Assembly (NCBI GenBank): GCA_937872175.1
Contig: CALMPI010000052.1
Location: 1-64,000, forward strand
DNA length: 64,000 nucleotides
Direction of reading: 5' to 3'
From: an uncultured Flavobacteriales bacterium
Lineage (GTDB): Bacteria; Bacteroidota; Bacteroidia; Flavobacteriales_F; PHOS-HE28
Below are positions 2,306 through 13,313 of this stretch, one piece after another; the first letter of the stretch is position 1; each line of letters begins with the position of its first letter. Below the pieces are notes generated by a model. That model saw nothing but the letters and a program-made list of their open reading frames with translations, was not told where the DNA came from and did not search any database. A program made the translations under genes and the position numbers.

Positions 2306-5275
2306 TCAGTAATACTCCCTGATATACCCATACGCCTTATCAAAAAGCTCCTGGTCCCGGTGAAGCTGGTACTTCAGGAGCGACATGCGTAGCGCCTTCT
2401 GCACTTCGCGTTCGCCGGCGCTCGTGGTCTTCCAGCCATCGAAGCGGACCTTCTTCACGATCTCGTCGATGTCGGCGACGATGCGTTCCACGATCACCTG
2501 CGTGTTCTTGCCTTTCACCTCGTTGAAGAGCTCGGTGAGGGCTTCCTTGGCGCGGTCGCGTTCCTCTTCGGGGTCGGTGGCGTTCTCGGCCTCCACGGTG
2601 TCCTTGGCCAGGTCCAGGATCTCCTTCAGGAACTCGATGCTGGTGAGGATGCCTTGCTCGTGGCGCTCCTTGATGCGTTCCAAGCGTTTGCCGAGTTCGG
2701 TGAACTTGGCGTTGCCCTTGTGCTTCTGCAGGCGGGCCACCAGGCGGAGCTCGATCTCCTTGGCGCGCTTGTTCGCCTCCATCTCCTTCAGCACGCTCTC
2801 GATCTTGTCGGTGTCCAGCACCAGTTCCTCCAGGTCATCGCGGACGGCCTCCACGTGCACGTTCTCGTTGATCAGGTCGATGGTCTTGGCGCCGAGCATG
2901 TGCCAGAGCAACTTGCCGTTGCCGCTGGGGGGCTTCACGCTCTCGTACACCTTGGCCAGCCAGCGGTAGTCGTTGGCGTAGGGTGCCAGCACGGCGTCCG
3001 GGCTCAGCGCTTCCCAGATGCCAACCAGCACGGTGAACTGGCTGGCGAACTTGTCCTTCTTCGCGTTGTCCGGCAGGTGTTCCTGCGCGGCCATCAGGCC
3101 TTCGTAGCCGCCCACGGTGCGGTCCACGCCGGGGAAGAAGTCGAGGCAGGCCTGCATCTGGATGGGCAGGGCCTTGCGCATCTCGTCGATGTTGCTCACC
3201 ACCTGCTGCATGCTCTTCTCATCGAAGTGCAGGGCGCGGGCTACGTCGTCGAAGATGCCGATGAAGTCCACGATAAGGCCGTGGGTCTTGGCCTGACCGT
3301 ACACGCGGTTGGTGCGGCAGATGGCCTGCAGCAGGTTGTGGTCCTTCATCGGCTTGTCCAGGTACATGGCCTGGAGGATGGGCGCATCGAAGCCGGTGAG
3401 GAGCTTGTTGGTGACGATGAGGAATTGCAGCGGGTGCGCTGGGTCGCGGAAGTTGTCCAGTAGCTTCTCCTCGGCGTCCTTGTCGCGCTTGTGGGCCTCC
3501 CATTCCTTGGGGTCGCCCTGGGTGCCGCTGAACACGATGGCGCTTGCCTCAGCTGGCAGCAGCTCATCCATCACCTGCTTGTACAGCACGCAGCATTCGC
3601 GGTCGAAGGTGACCACCTGGGCCTTGAAGCCGTTGGGCTCCACCTTGCGCTGGAAGTGCTGCACGATGTAGTTCACCACGGCGCGCACGCGTTCCGGGTT
3701 CTTCACCAGCACGGCCATCTTGGCGGCGCGCTTGGCCAGGTCGTCGCGGTCCTGCTCGCTCAGTTCGTCGGTGATCTGCGCGTAGGCCTCATCGATGGCG
3801 GCCTGGTCGATCTTCAGTTTCACCGAGGGGGCCTCGAAGTGCAGGGGCAGCGTGGCCTTATCGCGGATGCTGTCCTGGAAACTGTAGCGGCTCATGTAGC
3901 CCTGCTCATCCTCGTCGGCACCGAAGGCCCAGAAGGTGTTCTTGTCGCTGCGGTTGATGGGTGTGCCGGTGAGGCCGAAGAGGAAGGCCTGTGGCAATGC
4001 GGCGCGCATCTGTCGGCCCAGGTCGCCTTCCTGGGTGCGGTGGGCCTCGTCCACCATCACGATGATGTTGCTGCGCTCGTTGAGCACGCCGCCCGCCTCG
4101 GCGAACTTGTGAATGGTGGTGATCAGCACTTTGCGCACGTCCTGCTTCAGCGCGTCGTGCAACTGTTGCCGGTCGGGCACGGCCACCATGTTGGGCACAT
4201 CGGCCGCGTTGAAGGTGGCGGTGATCTGCGTGTCCAGGTCGATGCGGTCCACCACGATCAGCACCGTGGGGTTGGCCAGCGCGGGGTGCAGGCGCAGCTT
4301 CTGTGCGGCGAAGACCATCAACAGGCTTTTGCCGCTGCCTTGGAAGTGCCAGATCAGGCCCTTCTTCGGGTGGCCGGCCACCACGCGCGCCACCATCTTG
4401 TTCACCGTATCGAACTGCTGGTAGCGGCAGATCTGTTTAATGCGCCTGTGCTTCTTGTCCGTGCTGAAGAGGGTGAAGTGCTGCAGGATGTCCAGCACCA
4501 CCTCGGGCCGCATCAGGCTTTCCACGGTGGCCTTCACGTGCTTCAGCTGGCCTTCCTCCTGGTTGTCCTCATCGCGCCACGGGCCCCACAGGTCCAGCGG
4601 CATGCGGATGCTGCCGTAGCGCAGCTTCTTGCCCTCGGTGGCGAAGCTGAACACGTTGGGCACGAACATGGCCGGCAATTCCTTTTCGTAGATCTCGTTC
4701 ACCTGCCACGCGCCATCGAACCAGGTCACGGAATCGCGCACGGGGGTCTTGGCCTCGCCGATCACCAGCGGTATGCCGTTCACCAGGAAGACCACATCGA
4801 AGCGCTTGTTCACGCTGCCCGCCACGTAGGTCCATTGGTTGGTGACGGTAAGGCGGTTGTTGCCGGGGTGCTCGCGGTCCAGCAGGCGGATGGGCACGTG
4901 CTCACCGTTGGGGCCGAAGGGCAGGGTCTTCTCTCCGCGCAGCCAGGCGGTGAAGTGCTCGTTGGCGCGCACCAGCCCATCACTATGCACGCTCAGCAGG
5001 ATGGCACGCAGCTGGTAGAAGACTTCATCGGCGCGGTCCGGTTGGGCGGCGATCTCGGGGTTCAGTTTCAGCAGGGCTTCGCGCAGCCAACTATCCACCA
5101 GCACATCGGCGGGTTGGCGCGGCACCTCTGTGGGCTTGGCGAAGGTCCAGCGTGTGGGTTCCAGCCGAATGCCATAGCCCGCCAGCGGCTCGGCCACTAC
5201 GTTGCCGCCCAGCCCGATGCGCGCCACGGCATCCAGGATCAGCTGCTCGACGGTGTTGGATTCGTTGAAACTCAT
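2306..5275 (-). CDS. hsdR: type I restriction enzyme R (motor/nuclease) subunit
   Basis: This 989-residue protein is the ATP-driven translocase and endonuclease subunit of a type I restriction-modification complex. The N-terminal nuclease has the D...ExK arrangement, with D160 in KRFDVVF and E174-A-K176 in VIGEAKTP. The helicase part shows Walker A GSGKS (313-317), a DEAH box (409-412, in VDEAHRT) and LTGTP (435-439), and later a second RecA-like domain including LLTGFDAP. The helical C-terminus ends in GYIREYY. Length is normal for the family. The ATG overlaps the hsdS stop in an ATGA, so R is coupled to S. It cuts DNA lacking the methylation set by the HsdM/HsdS pair. No frameshift or missing motif is seen. 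Confidence 0.95.
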   Translation of the reverse strand: MSFNESNTVEQLILDAVARIGLGGNVVAEPLAGYGIRLEPTRWTFAKPTEVPRQPADVLVDSWLREALLKLNPEIAAQPDRADEVFYQLRAILLSVHSDGLVRANEHFTAWLRGEKTLPFGPNGEHVPIRLLDREHPGNNRLTVTNQWTYVAGSVNKRFDVVFLVNGIPLVIGEAKTPVRDSVTWFDGAWQVNEIYEKELPAMFVPNVFSFATEGKKLRYGSIRMPLDLWGPWRDEDNQEEGQLKHVKATVESLMRPEVVLDILQHFTLFSTDKKHRRIKQICRYQQFDTVNKMVARVVAGHPKKGLIWHFQGSGKSLLMVFAAQKLRLHPALANPTVLIVVDRIDLDTQITATFNAADVPNMVAVPDRQQLHDALKQDVRKVLITTIHKFAEAGGVLNERSNIIVMVDEAHRTQEGDLGRQMRAALPQAFLFGLTGTPINRSDKNTFWAFGADEDEQGYMSRYSFQDSIRDKATLPLHFEAPSVKLKIDQAAIDEAYAQITDELSEQDRDDLAKRAAKMAVLVKNPERVRAVVNYIVQHFQRKVEPNGFKAQVVTFDRECCVLYKQVMDELLPAEASAIVFSGTQGDPKEWEAHKRDKDAEEKLLDNFRDPAHPLQFLIVTNKLLTGFDAPILQAMYLDKPMKDHNLLQAICRTNRVYGQAKTHGLIVDFIGIFDDVARALHFDEKSMQQVVSNIDEMRKALPIQMQACLDFFPGVDRTVGGYEGLMAAQEHLPDNAKKDKFASQFTVLVGIWEALSPDAVLAPYANDYRWLAKVYESVKPPSGNGKLLWHMLGAKTIDLINENVHVEAVRDDLEELVLDTDKIESVLKEMEANKRAKEIELRLVARLQKHKGNAKFTELGKRLERIKERHEQGILTSIEFLKEILDLAKDTVEAENATDPEEERDRAKEALTELFNEVKGKNTQVIVERIVADIDEIVKKVRFDGWKTTSAGEREVQKALRMSLLKYQLHRDQELFDKAYGYIREYY

Positions 5276-6486
5276 GTGACCGATGCTATCAGCGCCATGC
5301 GTTGGTTCAATAATGCCTTCTGTGCATTCTCCAGCGTTTGCGCCACTTCATCAAATTGCTTCATGTGCACGATGAAGCGTTCCTGTCCCTCGATCGTAGT
5401 TTGCGGTAGCGGGAAGTCCGTAAAGTCATCCATCATCAAACGCTTCGTGCCGTGAGAGGTCGTCGATGTCTTGCCCAGAATGGGTTTAGAGAGCCACTTG
5501 AACCAGTGGAACATGTACTCGACCTTGAACCGGTCATTCGGTATGAGAGTCTTCATATCCTGATTGAACGCCATATCCCGTGCTGTCATGCAAACCGGGA
5601 ATGTGTGCGCGAGTATCATCCCGCGAACAACGATCATCAAGCTCCCTGCTGGGACGACCGTAGCCAAGTCTACACCTTGCTCTGAAAGGTGGTCTTCGGT
5701 GTCGTGAAGCACGTCCACCTTCATGTCCTTGGGACTAACCCACGGATATTCACCAGTCCAATTTGCTGGATCTTGTCTTGATGGCGTGTTGCCTGTCACC
5801 CATTTGCCGGCTTCGGCTACGGATACAGTATCAGTCTCCTGGACCGCACGCTCGAAGTGAGCTTCCCGCAAACGCACTTGGGCAGAGTGATTTGCTAACC
5901 CAACGGCTCGATAGCCTTCCAGAGTCTCATCCACCGCCCACAGCACCTCGGCGATGCGGCGCTGCTGGTCGAGGGGCGGCAGGGCGAACTCGAACCAAGC
6001 GATGTCAGACCAGTTGATGTATGGATTCACACTACCCTTGCTTTCACGCACCGAGTGCTCAGTGAACTTATCCGAGAGCATGATCCAAGGCAAGAGATCT
6101 TGAAGGAGTCCTTCCTTGGCTTCGAGAACAAGGGTGGTGTTTGCCGTAACGCCATCAAAGTCCGCGACCGATACCTTCTTCAGGTACGTTCGGCGCGAGC
6201 CATAGAGCACTTGCCCCTTGCGGAAGCGACGGATGAACGCAGGCCCCAAATAGCCATCGCCAACTGTTCCCCAACGTCGGATATGCACATCTGCACTGTC
6301 CATGTGCTCGCCGGCCACATAGCGCTCCACCTCTCCGGACTCAGGGTCGACCTGTTCCTTCAGGCACTTGACCACATCACCAAACGTCACCGTCTCCCAC
6401 TTCGAGCGATCGAAGAGGGGGAGTTGGGCCCAGTTGGGGTTGGGCGACATGCTGTGCTGCACAAGGGTGGCGGAGGCTTGGCTCAT
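5272..6486 (-). CDS. hsdS: type I restriction enzyme specificity (S) subunit
   Basis: This 404-residue DNA-recognition subunit has the usual two target-recognition domains. The first covers about residues 20-150. The conserved spacer helix follows (PPLDQQRRIAEVLWAVDETLE, about 155-180), then the second domain (WVTGNTPSRQDPANW onward) and the distal conserved helix near the C-terminus (GQERFIVHMKQFDEV). I chose the ATG at 6486 over an upstream in-frame ATG at 6516 because it makes a 4-base ATGA overlap with the preceding gene, as elsewhere in this operon. It should assemble with HsdM to set the methylated sequence. Only one S gene serves two M genes in this island. The target sequence cannot be deduced by eye. 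Confidence 0.93.
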   Translation of the reverse strand: MSQASATLVQHSMSPNPNWAQLPLFDRSKWETVTFGDVVKCLKEQVDPESGEVERYVAGEHMDSADVHIRRWGTVGDGYLGPAFIRRFRKGQVLYGSRRTYLKKVSVADFDGVTANTTLVLEAKEGLLQDLLPWIMLSDKFTEHSVRESKGSVNPYINWSDIAWFEFALPPLDQQRRIAEVLWAVDETLEGYRAVGLANHSAQVRLREAHFERAVQETDTVSVAEAGKWVTGNTPSRQDPANWTGEYPWVSPKDMKVDVLHDTEDHLSEQGVDLATVVPAGSLMIVVRGMILAHTFPVCMTARDMAFNQDMKTLIPNDRFKVEYMFHWFKWLSKPILGKTSTTSHGTKRLMMDDFTDFPLPQTTIEGQERFIVHMKQFDEVAQTLENAQKALLNQRMALIASVT

Positions 6487-7523
6487 GATGCGTGCGGGTC
6501 CGTGCGTTGCACCCACTGATTGAATGTATCCTGAAAGTCTTGCGCCGCTTGCATGAGTTGCTCAAAGGTGGGCACTTCGCGGTAGATCATGGCGGCGCTG
6601 CGTTGGTAGTCGCCGCGCCAGTCGGGCAAAGCCTCCGCAGGCGGCACGATGGCAATGCCTGTGCGTAGCAGCGCGTCGTAGTCCAACTTGCCATAGCGGT
6701 AGAAGGTGCGCCGGTGCTGCACCACGGCTTCGAACAAGGCGCGGTCGGCCATGGCTTCGGCGCCATAGCCGCCGGCATCCAGCTTCAGCAGGTCGTAGTA
6801 GTGGCGGCTCTTGCGTTCGCTGCCCTTGTTGAAGCCGGCGATGGTCTCGTGCAGCAGCAGGGCTTTTTCCAGCAGGGTGCGCTGGGGTGCCAAGGTGGGC
6901 ACGTTGAAGGTGGCAGTACCCAAGGCTTCGGGCAGTGCTAGGTATACGAAGGGAGTAATAGGGCGCGGTGTGTTAGGCTCGTCATCGGCACGCGGCACCA
7001 GTTCTACCAGCACATGTTCTATCACGCCGACAAGGCCGTCCTTCAGGCTGCCGGGGTAGTTGAAGAGCAGGTTCGTTTCGTTGCCCTTGATGTGTGGGTC
7101 CAGCGACCATGTACCGCTGGGCAGTAGATCGTCCAGGCGTGTCCGGAGGGCGGGTAGCAGTGTGGTGGTGATCCATGTGGCGCAGCCGGCAGCAAGACGG
7201 TCCAGATACGCCTTGCGCTTGGTGTTGCTGAGGGCGGCCGGGTCGGTGGTCTCTTCGGGCAGCAACAGGGCGCGGTCCAGCACCAGGTCGATGTCCTCGG
7301 AGAAGCGGTCGATGAGGTCATAGCCCTTGGAAAGGGAGGTGCCCCCCTTGAATGTGAGGCGGCCCTTCGTTTCGGGCAATTCCATGATCACCTGCAGCAG
7401 CCAGCTCACCCAGAAGTCCTTTTCGATGACGGCCGCTGGGAGGGGGAAGGGCAACGCTTCCGTCGCCTGGCGGCAGTAGGTGGCGCGGTCCTCCGGAGAT
7501 AGGTCGATGAAGCTGCGCATCAT
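6483..7523 (-). CDS. abiEii: AbiEii/AbiGii-family nucleotidyltransferase toxin
   Basis: This 346-residue protein carries the hallmarks of the AbiEii nucleotidyltransferase-like toxins: GGTSLSKGYDLI at residues 60-71 and FSEDIDLVLD at 74-83, the metal-binding DxD-type motif. Members of the family transfer nucleotides to RNA and arrest growth, giving abortive phage infection when freed from the antitoxin. Its ATG overlaps the antitoxin stop in an ATGA, the standard AbiEi-AbiEii coupling. Its own stop overlaps the hsdS start, so toxin, S and R appear to be on one message. Both core motifs look intact. Confidence 0.88.
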   Translation of the reverse strand: MMRSFIDLSPEDRATYCRQATEALPFPLPAAVIEKDFWVSWLLQVIMELPETKGRLTFKGGTSLSKGYDLIDRFSEDIDLVLDRALLLPEETTDPAALSNTKRKAYLDRLAAGCATWITTTLLPALRTRLDDLLPSGTWSLDPHIKGNETNLLFNYPGSLKDGLVGVIEHVLVELVPRADDEPNTPRPITPFVYLALPEALGTATFNVPTLAPQRTLLEKALLLHETIAGFNKGSERKSRHYYDLLKLDAGGYGAEAMADRALFEAVVQHRRTFYRYGKLDYDALLRTGIAIVPPAEALPDWRGDYQRSAAMIYREVPTFEQLMQAAQDFQDTFNQWVQRTDPHAS

Positions 7524-8131
7524 GGGGCGGGCCTTTCGGCGAGGCGGGTAAGGATGCGCGCGATCCAGGCCGGGGCGTGGATGCGGTGCTTCAGCAGGAG
7601 CTTGCGGTCGCGGTCATCGAGCCGTGCGGCAATGCGGGCCAGGGTGTCCTCGTCCACGTTGCGCTGGCCCAGGTGGCGCAGGGCCTGGATGACGAGCCCG
7701 GCGGTGGTGCCGGCCGCGGCCATGTTGCGCGGGGTGGTGGGCTTCAGCAGGATCTCCTGTCGGCCGTAGCGGATCACCTTCTTCGGGCCGTTGGTGTAGA
7801 GTTCCACGCGCATGGGGATCTGCGAGGAAAGGCCCAGCAGGTTGGCGGCATAGGCACCGGTGGGTTGCACGGTGATGGCCTCCGACTCCTGAATGGCGCG
7901 GACCACATCATCCACCGAGGGCATCAGCGGACCCAGTTTGGGATGCAATTGGGGCAGGTCGTACAGGCCATGGGCCAAGCGGCGGATGGAGCCCTTTTTC
8001 GCCAGTCGGCCAAGCACCGAAGCCACGGCCTTCGGATCATCCGAAACGGCGGTGAAGAGCTTTGGCGTAAAGACCAAACCTCTCCCCCTGGCGCGCACCC
8101 TTGCTATTATCTGTCTTTCAGTGAGTTGCAC
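7520..8131 (-). CDS. abiEi: AbiEi-like antitoxin / DUF6088 transcriptional regulator
   Basis: This 203-residue protein has an N-terminal winged helix (LTERQIIARVRARGRGLVFTP through RRLAHGLYDLP, about residues 3-60). A C-terminal part follows with the YTNGPKKVIRYG segment typical of DUF6088/AbiEi-type antitoxins. In this class the antitoxin neutralises AbiEii without a stable complex and represses its own promoter by binding inverted repeats. A suitable inverted repeat lies 22 bases upstream of the start (8153-8180). The stop overlaps the toxin start. Start at 8131 gives the shortest complete helix-turn-helix. Assignment is by motif and by gene pairing. Confidence 0.82.
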   Translation of the reverse strand: MQLTERQIIARVRARGRGLVFTPKLFTAVSDDPKAVASVLGRLAKKGSIRRLAHGLYDLPQLHPKLGPLMPSVDDVVRAIQESEAITVQPTGAYAANLLGLSSQIPMRVELYTNGPKKVIRYGRQEILLKPTTPRNMAAAGTTAGLVIQALRHLGQRNVDEDTLARIAARLDDRDRKLLLKHRIHAPAWIARILTRLAERPAP

Positions 8132-8152
8132 GATGTATGCGCGAGTTTTCCG

Positions 8153-8180
8153 GTTGTAAATTACACTATCTTTTTACAAC
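8153..8180 (-). promoter_or_regulatory. inverted repeat, probable AbiEi operator
   Basis: A perfect 8-base inverted repeat, GTTGTAAA (8153-8160) and TTTACAAC (8173-8180), is separated by 12 bases of AT-rich DNA in an otherwise GC-rich setting. It sits just upstream of the antitoxin start at 8131. Known AbiEi antitoxins bind paired inverted repeats at their own promoter, so this is the obvious operator/promoter candidate. The role is inferred from position and symmetry. Confidence 0.55.
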
Positions 8181-8194
8181 GGAGGCAGGGTGTA

Positions 8195-8394
8195 CTGGAC
8201 CGCATGCGCTGACCGAAGGTCAGCGCATGCGGTCCAGCGCGCGTGGGCGCACACCCACGTGCGTACACGTGCGTGTGCAGGCACCCGCGCGCCCGCACAC
8301 GTCAGGGTTACTTCGTAACCCTGGCGGGCTTCTTCAAGAGCGTGGATCCAAGAGCACTGGGGCCCACGGACGCCGCGCTCCGCCAAGAGGAGCG
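8195..8394. repeat. cluster of perfect hairpins between hsdM and abiEi
   Basis: This gap holds no credible gene but at least four strong foldback structures. (1) 8195-8214 pairs with 8218-8237: 20 perfect base pairs with a GAA triloop. (2) 8238-8247 pairs with 8254-8263: ten pairs including one G-U. (3) 8303-8311 pairs with 8315-8323: nine perfect pairs with a TTC triloop, extendable to 12 with a wobble. (4) 8376-8381 pairs with 8389-8394: six pairs. None is followed by a T-run on the minus strand, so simple intrinsic termination is not obvious. A structured RNA, a mobile palindromic element or a processing/attenuation region are possible. Confidence 0.75.
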
Positions 8395-8436
8395 AATGGG
8401 GCCCACCAGAACGACGAACGAGGCGTGGAACTCCCA

Positions 8437-9933
8437 TCACCCCACGAGGCCTTTGTTCAGCGCTCCAAGGGCATTTCTCAGGCCTTGTGAACTCTTCAGC
8501 CAGCTATCCAGCACCACGGGTAGTTCGGGTGCGGTCCGTTCGTCCGATCCTGCTTGCGCGGTACCGGTCGGTGTAGCCACGTACAGGGCAATGTTCAAGC
8601 TCCCCTCCTTGCCGCGGATCTCTTCCAGCGGCGCCACATGCGCAAAGCCTGACTCTTCGGTGAAGTCACGGTACGCCTTCACAATGCGCTGCTGGTGCGC
8701 TTCGGTAAGAAAGCTCTGCGCCCGTTCGCGCGTTACCTCGTTCACGGCGTTGATGAAGAGCACCTTGCCCTTGCGGGCCTTGGGCTTCTTGCTGCGGCAG
8801 ATGACCACGCAGCTTTCCATGGGGCTGTTGTAGAAGAGGTTGGGCCCCAGGCCCAGCACGCACTCGATCAGGTCGGCCTCGATCAGCTTGCGGCGCATCT
8901 CCGCCTCCACATCGCGGAAGAGCACCCCGTGCGGGAAGAGGATGGCGCAGCGGCCGCTGTTGGCATCCATGCTGGCGAGGATGTGCTGGAAGAAGGCATA
9001 GTCCGCATTACCCTGCGGCGGTGTGCCATACAGGTTGCGCCCCCAGGGGTCGCTGGCCCACAGGGCACGATCCCACTGCTTGATGGAGTAGGGCGGGTTG
9101 GCCAGCACCACATCGAAGCGGCGCAGGCGGTCGCCCTCCAGCAACTTGGGTTGCGCCAGGGTATCGCCGCGCACGATCTGGAAATCCTCGATGCCGTGCA
9201 GGAAGCAGTTCATGCGGGCAATGGAGCTGGTCATGAGGTTGCGCTCCTGCCCGAAGAGGCCCACGTTGCGCCACTCCTTGCCCTGCTTCTTCAGGTGCGT
9301 GATCGCGCTGAGCAGCATGCCGCCGCTGCCGCAGGTGGGGTCGTAGATGCGTTCGCCGGGCTGGGGTTCCAGCAGCTCGGTCATCAGGTGCACCACGGTG
9401 CGGTTGGTGTAGAACTCGGCGGCGGTGTGCCCGCTGTCGTCCGCGAACTTCTTGATCAGGTACTCGTAGCCATTGCCCAGCTCATCCTCCGGCAGGTTGG
9501 CCACAGTGAGCTCCAGGGTGCTGAAGTGCTCGATGAGGTCGCGCAGCAGTGCATCGCTCAGGCGGTCCTTGTTGGTCCACTGCGCATCGCCGAAGATGCC
9601 TTGCAGCTTGTCCGGGTTGGCCGTTTCGATGGCGCGCATGCCGGCCTGCAAGGCGCGGCCCACGTTGGTGGTCACCTGGCGCACGGCGTTCCAATGCGCC
9701 TCGGCCGGGATCTGGAAACGGTGGATCTCCTTGAAGTCGTCGACACCTTCTTCCAGGCCCAGTTCCTCCTTGGCGGTGCGCGTCTCCTCATCGAATACAT
9801 CGCACACGCGCTTGTAGAACAGCAGCGGGAAGATGAACTGCTTGTAGTCGCCCGCGTCGATGGTGCCGCGCAGCAGCGTGGCCGCACCCCATAGGTAGGT
9901 CTCGAGTTGGGATTGGGGGATGCGGGTTGACAT
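8437..9933 (-). CDS. hsdM: type I restriction-modification M subunit (adenine methyltransferase), copy 1
   Basis: This 498-residue N6-adenine DNA methyltransferase has an N-terminal HsdM helical domain (LETYLWGAATLLRG onward). The S-adenosylmethionine motif is DPTCGSGG (198-205) and the catalytic motif IV is NPPY (279-282). A third conserved block reads AEFYTNRTVV (172-181), where the usual FYTP is FYTN. It is clearly paralogous to the larger HsdM at 11487-13313. Its ATG overlaps the kinase stop by one base (TGATG), so it is translated with the kinase. Both catalytic motifs are intact, so it should modify adenines together with HsdS. The hairpin cluster follows its stop. Confidence 0.95.
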   Translation of the reverse strand: MSTRIPQSQLETYLWGAATLLRGTIDAGDYKQFIFPLLFYKRVCDVFDEETRTAKEELGLEEGVDDFKEIHRFQIPAEAHWNAVRQVTTNVGRALQAGMRAIETANPDKLQGIFGDAQWTNKDRLSDALLRDLIEHFSTLELTVANLPEDELGNGYEYLIKKFADDSGHTAAEFYTNRTVVHLMTELLEPQPGERIYDPTCGSGGMLLSAITHLKKQGKEWRNVGLFGQERNLMTSSIARMNCFLHGIEDFQIVRGDTLAQPKLLEGDRLRRFDVVLANPPYSIKQWDRALWASDPWGRNLYGTPPQGNADYAFFQHILASMDANSGRCAILFPHGVLFRDVEAEMRRKLIEADLIECVLGLGPNLFYNSPMESCVVICRSKKPKARKGKVLFINAVNEVTRERAQSFLTEAHQQRIVKAYRDFTEESGFAHVAPLEEIRGKEGSLNIALYVATPTGTAQAGSDERTAPELPVVLDSWLKSSQGLRNALGALNKGLVG

Positions 9934-11009
9934 CAGTGTTCTTTTCCAGTCACAACATACTGCATGAAGCGGTGCTGTATGTCCATGGCATCTGTGCGGT
10001 TCAGGTCGCGGCTGCAGTAGTTGCTCACACGATTCTCATGGCCGGTCTTGCGGTGAAGGCAATAACCAACGAAGTTGAAGACCTTGCCATCTGTGTGGTC
10101 GATCTTATAACGGTAGACGTGCCTTTCTGTGTGCCCTTCCATCCCGTTAGGCGTCGCTATCCAATATCCAGGATAGTCCAGCGCCTCCAACGCGCGCTGC
10201 ATTTCCAATGGAGTTTCGTAACGGTCGGCGGGATCAACTGCCATTGCACGCGTAAGCACGCTTCGGACTTTACGAGGTATATGTGGCGGCCATTCATTCT
10301 TGCCAATAACCTTCCCTTGTGTGACTAGGTTATAGTACGCTCCATCACCAAGGTCTCTCTTCTTCCTCTTGATCACTTCTGTGCCCGATAACAATCGGTA
10401 GATCGTCATTCCTAGTTGATAAATATCTGTCTGCGGTAGCACTGCATTGTGCAGCAACATCTCTGGAGCGACATGGGGTCCATAGTGTCCGCGCAGGGGA
10501 ACAGGGCCACCACTAGGAGAGTGGACGGATATTCCGTAGTCAGTAAGCGCAGCTTGGCCATAGCCATTGATGAGGATGTTGCTCGGCTTCACGTCACCGT
10601 GAATCATCCCAAGGCCATGCAAGACACCTAGTCCTCTCAAAACTTCAATGCTGTATTTGAGCACGTTTGGCAGCCTGATCATCTGCGCGGGCTCCAGGTT
10701 GTGCACAAGCGATTTTCTCGGATGGTAGTCCATCGCTATGGCGACCAGTTTATGGGCACCGTGCTCGACAGCATCAGCGTAGTGGACACGTACCAGATTA
10801 GGATTCTTGAGTTGAATGCCGAGCTTGGCCTCGCGCAGGTGCTCATCAACGGCAGCCTCTGCCTGGTCCAGGAACTTTACCGCAAACTGATGATCGAGGT
10901 TCAAATCGTTGGCTAGCCACACTTGTCCATAGCCTCCCTTCCCAATGAACTCGATCAGCTCATGTTTGCCGACGCGCTCGCCAGCACTGAAAGAAATCGA
11001 GCTTGCCAT
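9933..11009 (-). CDS. Ser/Thr protein kinase embedded in the restriction-modification operon
   Basis: This 358-residue protein is an apparently active Hanks-type kinase: glycine loop GKGGYG (23-28), ATP lysine K45, alpha-C glutamate E60, catalytic HGDVKPSN (137-144, HRD present as HGD), metal-binding DYG (157-159, for DFG) and APE (181-183). A C-terminal extension of about 75 residues (284-358; it contains YWIATP and YCSRD) has no family I know. No membrane segment is present, so it acts in the cytoplasm. It begins directly after the stop of the RuvC-like gene and overlaps hsdM. Its bases look less GC-rich than the flanking hsdM genes, suggesting separate acquisition. Stk2-type and PglW-type kinases of phage defence are precedents for such a role. 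Confidence 0.9.
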   Translation of the reverse strand: MASSISFSAGERVGKHELIEFIGKGGYGQVWLANDLNLDHQFAVKFLDQAEAAVDEHLREAKLGIQLKNPNLVRVHYADAVEHGAHKLVAIAMDYHPRKSLVHNLEPAQMIRLPNVLKYSIEVLRGLGVLHGLGMIHGDVKPSNILINGYGQAALTDYGISVHSPSGGPVPLRGHYGPHVAPEMLLHNAVLPQTDIYQLGMTIYRLLSGTEVIKRKKRDLGDGAYYNLVTQGKVIGKNEWPPHIPRKVRSVLTRAMAVDPADRYETPLEMQRALEALDYPGYWIATPNGMEGHTERHVYRYKIDHTDGKVFNFVGYCLHRKTGHENRVSNYCSRDLNRTDAMDIQHRFMQYVVTGKEH

Positions 11010-11474
11010 CTAACTCTGCGTCACTTTGAATGCAACGGCTACAGCGTCCGCCATCTGCTCATTCCAGTACATTGTGGTCCTGCCCACCTTTGCCTCTGCA
11101 TAGGCCTTGACTTCCCGGCTGTTTGTACCAATCTGATTGTGGAAGAACGTATCGACTGGAATGCCCCACCGTCCAGCAGCGAGTAAAACGGCGGCATCGT
11201 AGTAGGCAGACTCCCGTGATGCGCTGCTTTCAGCACGACGCATTACGAACTCATTCACCTTAAGGGCGATTCGATCGAATGGTGGCTTCGCGCTTAAGAT
11301 GCGTTCCAGTTCTTGATCAAGGAAGTACAACTTGGCGGCATTCGTATGGGCTGAAGCAGGGAACGTCAGCCAACTCTCGCTACTGGTGTTCAATAGCGTT
11401 GCTTTGGTACCATTCCATTCAACAATCGCGTAGCGGATTTCCTGAGATGAGGTTCGTATGCCGAGAATGCGCAT
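11010..11474 (-). CDS. RuvC/DUF3010-like RNase H-fold protein
   Basis: This 154-residue protein starts MRILGIRTSSQEIRYAIVEW, the first strands of a RuvC/RNase H-like fold, and ends with NEQMADAVAVA, which resembles the last acidic helix of RuvC-type nucleases. The layout (LKVNEFVMRRAESSASRESAYYDAAVLLAA in the middle) recalls DUF3010 proteins. The first acidic residue expected after strand 1 is absent (GIRTSS), so nuclease activity is doubtful. The stop abuts the kinase start with no gap, so the two are expressed as a pair, possibly as kinase plus substrate or sensor. The family call is tentative. Confidence 0.55.
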   Translation of the reverse strand: MRILGIRTSSQEIRYAIVEWNGTKATLLNTSSESWLTFPASAHTNAAKLYFLDQELERILSAKPPFDRIALKVNEFVMRRAESSASRESAYYDAAVLLAAGRWGIPVDTFFHNQIGTNSREVKAYAEAKVGRTTMYWNEQMADAVAVAFKVTQS

Positions 11475-11486
11475 GGCTGTTAAGTA

Positions 11487-13313
11487 TCAGACAATGAGTA
11501 GCCCTTCCTTCTTCATCAACCCCACCAACCGCTCCTCCGCCTCAAAGGCCTTGGCGGCACTGGCCTTCAGTTGCGCCATGGCCTCCTCCACGCTAAGCGC
11601 CTGCTGCTGCACGGGCGGCTCCACATAGCGCGGTATGTTCAGGTTGTGGTCGTTGGCGGCGATCTCATCCAACATGACCACCTTGGCGATGCCTTCCACA
11701 TCGGTGTAGTCGCGGTACCACTGGAAGATCTGGTCCTCGTGCTCGGGCAGCATCTCGTTCTGCGCGCGGCCGGTCTTGAAGGTGCGGCTGGCATCCAGAA
11801 TAAGCACCTTCTTCTTGCGGTCCTTGGCCTTCTTCTGGCGCAGCACCAGGATGCACGCAGCGAGGCCGGTGCCATAGAAGAGGTTCGGCCCCAGGCCGAT
11901 CACGGCTTCCAGCAGGTCCATGTTCAGGATCTTCGCGCGGATGGCGCCCTCCTTGCCGCTGCGGAACAAAGCGCCGTGCGGCAACACCACGGCCATGCGG
12001 CCGCTGCCGGGCGCCATGCTCTTGATCATGTGCTGCACCCAGGCAAAGTCGCCGCTCTTGTCGGGCGGCATGCCGGCGAAGTTGCGGCCCCAGGGGTCGC
12101 TGGTCCATACTTCTTCGCCCCACTTCTTCAGACTGAAAGGCGGGTTGGCGATCACACAATCGAAGGTGGCGAGGCTGCCGCCGCTGTAGAAGGCGGGATC
12201 GCGCAACGTATCGCCGCGCACGATCTTGAAATCGCTGGCGCCGTGCAGAAAGAGGTTCATGCGCGCGATGGCGCTGGTGGTGAGGTTGCGCTCCTGCCCG
12301 TAGAGCTTGCCCCAGAGCGTGCGGTCGTCGCCGTGGTGCTCCTTCACGTGGTGGATGGCCTCCATGAGCATGCCGCCGGTGCCGCAGGCGGGGTCGTAGA
12401 TGCTCTCGCCCTCCTGCGGGTCCAGGATGTTCACCATCAGCCGCACCACGCTGCGCGGCGTGTAGAACTCGCCGGCCTTCTTGTTGGTGGCATCGGCGAA
12501 CTTCTTGATCAGGTATTCATAACTCTGCCCCAGCAGGTCGTTCTGGGCCACCGCATTGCCCAGCGGGATGCGCGAGAAGTGCTCGATGAGGTCGCGCAGC
12601 AGCGCATCGCTGAGGCGTTCCTTGTTGGTCCACTGCGCATCGCCGAAGATGCCGTAGAGCGTTTCGGGGTTGGCCTGCTCGATGCCACGCAAGGCCTTTT
12701 GCAGCCGCTGCCCCACGTTGGTGGTGGTGGCGCGCACATCGTTCCAATGGCAACCCTCGGGCACCTGGAAGCGGTAGTGCTGCGGGAAGCTGGCGTACTC
12801 GGTATCGCCCCCGCCCTCCACCAAGGCGGCTTCCCGTTCCTCATCGAACACATCGCTGATGCGCTTGAAGAAGAGCAAGGGAAAGATGAAGGTCTTGAAG
12901 TCGGAGGCGTCGACGGCGCCGCGCAGGATGTTGGCGCTGGCCCAGAGGTGGGATTCGAGTTGGCCTAAGGTGAGTTGGTCGGGGTCGAGAGGCTCAGAGG
13001 CTTTCGGCTTGGAGGCTTGTAGGCCATTGGCTTGTGGGCCTGTGGGCTCAGAGGCCTTAGGCTTGGAGGCCTTGGGGCTCTTAGGCTTGTTGGCTTTCTG
13101 GCCTGTAGGCTTGCCAGCGCCCTGGTGACTGGCAGCCACCCGCACGCTCCCCCCCCGCCCCGGCCCCAGCACCAGCAGGCCTTGGGCCACCAGCGCATCG
13201 CGTACCGCGCGGTACTGGTCCTCGTTCCACCCGAGGGTGGCGCGGGCCTTCTGGTTGCCCATGCGCCCGGTGCGTTGCACCAGGTCCACCAGCTGCTGTT
13301 CGTCGCTCGTCAT
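11487..13313 (-). CDS. hsdM: type I restriction-modification M subunit, copy 2, with N-terminal helix-turn-helix and repeat linker
   Basis: This 608-residue adenine methyltransferase has three parts. The first is a winged-helix-like domain (residues 1-60: VDLVQRTGRMGNQKARATLG and a PGRGGSVRV wing). The second is a Lys/Pro/Ala/Ser linker built from ASKPKASEP-like units (about 66-110). The third is a complete HsdM core, with SAM motif DPACGTGG (307-314), GEFYTPR (281-287) and catalytic NPPF (390-393). The core is an obvious paralogue of copy 1, over 100 residues longer overall. It is the first gene of the cluster and ends 12 bases before the RuvC-like gene. No second hsdS is present, so which M pairs with the single S is unclear. 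Confidence 0.93.
   Translation of the reverse strand: MTSDEQQLVDLVQRTGRMGNQKARATLGWNEDQYRAVRDALVAQGLLVLGPGRGGSVRVAASHQGAGKPTGQKANKPKSPKASKPKASEPTGPQANGLQASKPKASEPLDPDQLTLGQLESHLWASANILRGAVDASDFKTFIFPLLFFKRISDVFDEEREAALVEGGGDTEYASFPQHYRFQVPEGCHWNDVRATTTNVGQRLQKALRGIEQANPETLYGIFGDAQWTNKERLSDALLRDLIEHFSRIPLGNAVAQNDLLGQSYEYLIKKFADATNKKAGEFYTPRSVVRLMVNILDPQEGESIYDPACGTGGMLMEAIHHVKEHHGDDRTLWGKLYGQERNLTTSAIARMNLFLHGASDFKIVRGDTLRDPAFYSGGSLATFDCVIANPPFSLKKWGEEVWTSDPWGRNFAGMPPDKSGDFAWVQHMIKSMAPGSGRMAVVLPHGALFRSGKEGAIRAKILNMDLLEAVIGLGPNLFYGTGLAACILVLRQKKAKDRKKKVLILDASRTFKTGRAQNEMLPEHEDQIFQWYRDYTDVEGIAKVVMLDEIAANDHNLNIPRYVEPPVQQQALSVEEAMAQLKASAAKAFEAEERLVGLMKKEGLLIV
12984..13118 (-). repeat. low-complexity repeat encoding the HsdM linker
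   Basis: The DNA here is a string of related short units (plus-strand GGCTTGGAGGC-like, including AGGCTTGGAGGC and AGGCTTGTTGGC) that encode KPKASEP/ASKPKA. The unit number probably changes easily by slippage. The units look to be multiples of three bases, so changes would alter linker length rather than reading frame. Confidence 0.6.

Follow-up and report, generated by a model that had tools for sequence, protein, structure and literature searches.

Kinases already figure among bacterial phage defence systems, and two-gene kinase modules are known. For example, PD-T4-6 is a single-gene defence kinase with a Hanks-type domain, the MADS system places a kinase (MAD6) beside type I-like methylation genes (methyltransferase MAD2), and DS-6 joins a HipA-like kinase, which is needed for protection, to a DUF3037/DUF1829 partner that is predicted to bind both the kinase and DNA (PMC13092281). 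Phage defence systems have also been described as stored in chromosomal integrons (Darracq et al., as cited in PMC13092281). Among proteins with resolvase-like folds, DUF3010 (PF11215) is a single-domain RNase H-like family that is related to junction resolvases and is reported to conserve its active-site residues (PMC3985635). Here we describe a gene pair from an uncultured Flavobacteriales bacterium that is assembled from such known parts, a Hanks-type Ser/Thr kinase and a RuvC fold, and in which the new element is a charge-reversed RuvC coupled to a kinase. No description of this pair was found in a literature search whose coverage lay mostly outside subscription journals.

The window analysed, a stretch of 64,000 nucleotides, carries the pair within a tightly packed operon in the order hsdM1, RuvC-like gene, kinase gene, hsdM2, AbiEi/AbiEii-type genes, hsdS and hsdR (Table 1). 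HsdM1 ends 12 nt before the start of the RuvC-like gene, the gap between the RuvC-like and kinase genes is 0 nt, and the kinase and HsdM2 genes share 1 nt, where the stop of the former meets the start of the latter. The first-pass annotation had described a gapless pair between two hsdM genes; its coordinates proved exact, and both flanking genes encode type I HsdM. The host operon as a whole (2306-13313) is a twin-hsdM type I system (M1-M2-S-R). As a single HsdS is accompanied by two different HsdM subunits, which are 53% identical, a heterodimeric methyltransferase is suggested.

Table 1. Coordinates of the gene pair, its key codons and the surrounding operon in the window.
Feature	Position	Strand	Length, role and evidence
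RuvC-fold protein gene	11010..11474	(-)	154 aa, first of pair; ORF, AlphaFold2 model, RuvC fold match
R7 codon	11454-11456		
K72 codon	11259-11261		
D143 codon	11046-11048		
Ser/Thr kinase gene (Hanks-type, non-RD)	9933..11009	(-)	358 aa, second of pair; Pkinase PF00069, E 1.4e-32
Kinase C-terminal domain, residues 277-358	9936..10181	(-)	structure model
HsdM1, upstream neighbour of pair	11487..13313	(-)	N6_Mtase + HsdM_N
HsdM2, downstream neighbour of pair	8437..9933	(-)	N6_Mtase + HsdM_N
AbiEi / DUF6088 protein, first of AbiE pair	7520..8131	(-)	PF19570, E 3.7e-38; PADLOC AbiEi
AbiEii nucleotidyltransferase, second of AbiE pair	6483..7523	(-)	PF08843, E 7.2e-32
HsdS, host restriction operon	5272..6516	(-)	PF01420
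HsdR, host restriction operon	2306..5275	(-)	TIGR00348, 504.9 bits

Relatives were gathered with the RuvC-like protein as the only query, which yielded 15 full-length proteins from Alpha-, Beta- and Gammaproteobacteria, Thermodesulfobacteriota and Bacteroidota. In all 15 the kinase gene directly follows the RuvC-like gene, mostly with a short overlap. One more relative is truncated and lies beside hsdS with no kinase in the 1.8 kb remaining on its contig, and is probably a decayed copy. The two proteins have diverged together (r = 0.95 between RuvC-like and kinase protein distances over the 16 pairs, the window's included), both genes are under purifying selection (dN/dS ~0.07-0.08 between the pairs of Limnobacter, L008, and Halomonas, L016), and in scans of 335 and 299 genomes (634 altogether) the C-terminal domain of the kinase was confined to genomes bearing the pair. 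The pair is rare: there were 2 convincing matches among 395 Bacteroidota genomes, and two classes of proteobacteria gave 2/369 and 1/385, the genome that supplied the query being counted each time.

The AlphaFold2 model of the RuvC-like protein (pLDDT 91.6, pTM 0.88) finds its best solved fold matches exclusively among RuvC resolvases (Z 17-19 over ~143 residues; the next group reaches Z ~14). The top match, a RuvC with Z 18.6, covers 145 of the 154 residues, and the whole-chain fold is thus common to this protein and the resolvases of D. radiodurans (7xhj), T. thermophilus (4ld0) and E. coli (1hjr); two rows from plasmid records were left out of the structure jobs. In contrast to those resolvases, the window protein is not recognised by the RuvC Pfam model, carries R7, K72 and Q140, and is invariably coupled with a kinase. 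A PDB search with a profile built from the family's sequences gave no match, and a phage RuvC-like resolvase family was matched by 6 of the 16 members (best E 3e-5). The label DUF3010-like, given in the first-pass annotation, was not supported as family membership: DUF3010 is likewise a single-domain RNase H-like protein of similar size, but PF11215 does not match the window protein and reaches one of the 16 members (best E 0.066), and the closest fold is RuvC itself. PDC-M62B (PADLOC, two members) was also rejected, as this model aligns to the L009 pair over only 42 of its 401 positions (E 0.008) and scores better elsewhere.

In a global profile alignment to Bacteroidota RuvC, which as evidence of homology is of low probability and was read together with strand positions in the model, R7 takes the place of the first catalytic Asp, K72 that of the fourth-strand Glu (the second acid) and Q140 that of the third acid, while D143 aligns with the last acid, so that only D143 remains of the four acids of a RuvC resolvase. 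R7 lies within modelled strand 2-8 and K72 at the end of strand 68-72. R7, K72, E75 and D143 are invariant in all 16 members, and the invariance of R7 and K72 at former acid positions points to a pocket that has been conserved with reversed charge and is not decaying. The family is also basic (pI 7.8-9.5), whereas near-neutral values were seen for the Bacteroidota RuvC proteins used for comparison. With the acids replaced and the charge of the pocket reversed, loss of cleavage is predicted, and the protein probably no longer cuts DNA; a phosphate-binding role for the pocket would be a guess. The loss of the first acidic residue, noted in the first-pass annotation, is confirmed by R7 and had been understated, since K72 and Q140 replace two more acids, while the inactivity of the nuclease fold, also proposed there, stands as a prediction supported by fold plus residues. 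A part as sensor or as substrate of the kinase, suggested in the same annotation, is more tentative. An active RuvC was rejected because Arg and Lys are invariant at two principal acid positions. That the protein remains a nuclease through other residues, with the kinase controlling its cutting, could draw on the full RuvC fold and on the invariant E75 and D143, but is highly improbable given Arg and Lys at two principal metal-ligand positions in 16/16 members.

The kinase, by comparison, appears complete. K45, D139, K141, N144 and D157 are all present in the window protein, in agreement with the earlier statement that it keeps its catalytic residues, and all 16 kinases retain the catalytic Lys together with intact HxDxKxxN and DYG motifs. 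The HRD Arg is replaced, giving HGD in the window and HND in the other 15, as in a non-RD kinase. The basic C-terminal ~80 residues are modelled as five strands and a helix, mostly at pLDDT 87-97. This domain matched no Pfam family and no PDB sequence relative, and a fold search with the whole kinase, in which the best-ranked matches were kinase domains, left it without a family name.

The nearest defence models of the kinase are PD-T4-6 and MAD6. The PD-T4-6 profile matches all 16 kinases strongly (E down to 6.5e-49 in the family), though over the general kinase domain only; the module differs from PD-T4-6 in having two genes and in its distinct kinase C-terminal domain, which lies outside the match. 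The resemblance to MADS lies in the kinase domain (E 1.4e-40) and in its setting next to methylation genes of type I-like character, but membership was rejected, with MAD6 scoring 111 bits against a cut-off of 460 and no MADS model matching the RuvC-like protein. DS-6 is likewise a two-gene module with a kinase, but its kinase family and partner fold are different. The likeness to defence kinases does not extend beyond the kinase domain that they share with other kinases, a point that counts against a role in defence.

Half of the 16 pairs, namely that of the window and those of seven relatives, lie inside type I restriction operons, where the genes overlap or abut. The pair comes right after hsdS in six of these relatives (L005, L006, L009, L012, L013 and L015) and two genes downstream of hsdS in L007, and hsdR follows the pair in all seven. 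A SprT-family metalloprotease gene lies after hsdR in each of these seven loci. Because the junction used in the relatives differs from the M1/M2 junction of the window, the insertions look independent. The other eight pairs lie outside restriction systems, with no hsd genes in the flanks examined (up to 10 kb, some shorter on one side). Along the tree there are three switches between restriction and non-restriction contexts, and well-supported branches force at least two of them. As pairs exist outside restriction loci, the module does not need restriction genes.

These contexts bear on the proposal that the pair regulates restriction, with the kinase phosphorylating HsdM, HsdS or HsdR and the RuvC-like protein reading the state of the DNA, so as to tune restriction or protect the host during establishment. 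HsdM phosphopeptides have been listed in other bacteria (PMC4754617), and with half of the pairs closely packed into type I operons this is a serious alternative for the copies that sit within restriction operons. However, the free-standing copies oppose it as the core function, the position within the operon varies between the M1/M2 junction and the site after hsdS, and twin-hsdM systems occur without the pair, and overall we consider it unlikely.

Several of the free-standing copies are associated with mobile elements. In Limnobacter (L008) the pair belongs to an array of integron cassettes whose genes end in attC-like sites; one such site (L008 9922-9976) immediately precedes the pair and a hairpin whose boxes are near consensus (z -3.4) immediately follows it, which is the arrangement of an integron gene cassette, flanked by attC on both sides within an attC-separated array. 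The pair in Halomonas (L016) is closely similar to it (91-92% protein identity) and has the same cassette end, while attC-like remnants are kept in L010 and L019, and on the contig that carries the L010 pair a decayed integron integrase is found 2.3 kb away. The L014 pair has a phage-type integrase just upstream of it and a relaxase downstream. The pair is therefore a mobile two-gene module that is independent of restriction genes. The window itself was rejected as an integron, no attC-like site having been found beside the pair, and a phage origin was rejected because neither phage records nor viral contigs gave a match.

Defence genes also occur next to the pair. A PDC-S21/DUF4917 protein (SIR2-like) is encoded directly after the kinase in L011 (11529-12611) and L012 (11535-12617), and an AlbA-Schlafen protein in L013 (1756-3468), and this third gene may be an exchangeable partner. 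An LmuA-like gene lies close to the pair in L010, and L016 has a DUF4011-REase helicase in the neighbourhood. To some extent such neighbours are to be expected, as restriction operons make up half of the loci.

The arrival of the pair in the window operon was assessed against two comparators. A plasmid of Streptomyces hirsutus (L074) carries a twin-hsdM operon with a separate ortholog for each HsdM of the window (M1 59%, M2 63%, with M1/M2 cross-comparisons at 49-50%; HsdR 52%), in which the two hsdM genes share a 4-nt overlap and no other gene separates them. A plasmid of Exiguobacterium aurantiacum (L078) has the same gene order with the hsdM genes 9 nt apart. The HsdM1 of the window has an N-terminal extension of ~110 aa (12980-13313) with a low-complexity KPKASEP-like repeat, which the S. 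hirsutus ortholog does not have. The AbiE genes are absent from both comparator operons; in the window the AbiEi/AbiEii-type pair (6483-8131) sits between hsdM2 and hsdS as a second two-gene module. At two of its gene junctions the window operon thus appears to have gained separate two-gene modules, one being the kinase pair and the other the AbiE pair. A search of 57 other genomes from the genus and class turned up no copy of the RuvC-like gene, and on the tree the window pair forms a long branch of unsure exact placement, apart from other Bacteroidota pairs, which fits acquisition from elsewhere.

Base composition differs in the same direction. The kinase gene (GC 52.4%, GC3 0.588) and the RuvC-like gene (52.0%, 0.574) are lower in GC than HsdM2 (63.3%, 0.856) and HsdM1 (64.1%, 0.870), as the first-pass annotation had remarked, though HsdS in the same operon is also AT-rich (55.7%, 0.658) and the pair is therefore not singled out by composition alone. 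The two comparators together with the AT-rich composition suggest a polarity of insertion in the window rather than loss elsewhere. The initial proposal of a transferred two-gene cassette thus gains from two empty sites, from the absence of the RuvC-like gene in 57 relatives, from the tree position of the window pair, and from copies without restriction genes, including the one in an integron array; equal composition with the flanking genes and no co-occurrence elsewhere, which would have spoken against it, were each contradicted.

What the pair does is a matter of more tentative interpretation. The organisation of a small protein gene first and an enzyme second, translationally coupled and paired in every full-length case, with copies in an integron array and beside an integrase, would suit a toxin-antitoxin module in which the kinase is toxic alone, the RuvC-like protein is an antitoxin through binding or being phosphorylated, and defence is a by-product of element maintenance. 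The RuvC-like protein, however, is without the DNA-binding autoregulator domain of usual antitoxins, and its conserved RuvC-fold pocket suggests ligand binding beyond inhibition, making this account rather improbable. In broad terms the pair is best read as a portable unit of defence or toxin-antitoxin-like type. The more exact explanation that we favour, with slightly less than even confidence, is that it is a self-contained, horizontally mobile and probably anti-phage module whose effector would be the kinase, under the control of a RuvC-like protein that does not cut. It draws on the constant pairing (15/15) and joint divergence, the eight pairs outside restriction loci, the empty sites, the strength of the fold match, the invariant R7 and K72, the proximity of the kinase to PD-T4-6 and MAD6, the adjacent defence genes and the dN/dS values.

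Under this anti-phage explanation, the exchange of its metal-binding acids for Arg and Lys would leave the RuvC-fold protein unable to cleave DNA, yet it might still bind a ligand rich in phosphate, for instance a phosphorylated residue or DNA that is branched or damaged. As the product of the first gene, coupled to the kinase, it would contact and control that enzyme, either by restraining it up to the point at which infection or DNA damage is perceived, or by activating it once the trigger is bound. The active kinase would then phosphorylate host or phage proteins and phage growth would stop. In the window, the module between the hsdM genes would share the expression of the restriction operon and could act as a second layer if restriction fails. 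A more specific proposal, possible but doubtful, is that of a new immune or stress switch, in which the non-cutting RuvC is a receptor for DNA structure (or a phospho-residue) that gates the Ser/Thr kinase, borne on integron cassettes and spliced into the junctions of restriction operons.

If the anti-phage explanation is true, a two-gene kinase system would be added to bacterial defence, in a 1.5-kb unit small enough for direct laboratory testing, and RuvC, a repair enzyme of most bacteria, would have been turned into the non-cutting partner of a signalling enzyme. In addition, with the kinase pair and the AbiE pair placed at two junctions of one operon and empty-site comparators for both, the junctions of type I restriction operons appear to collect intact two-gene modules.
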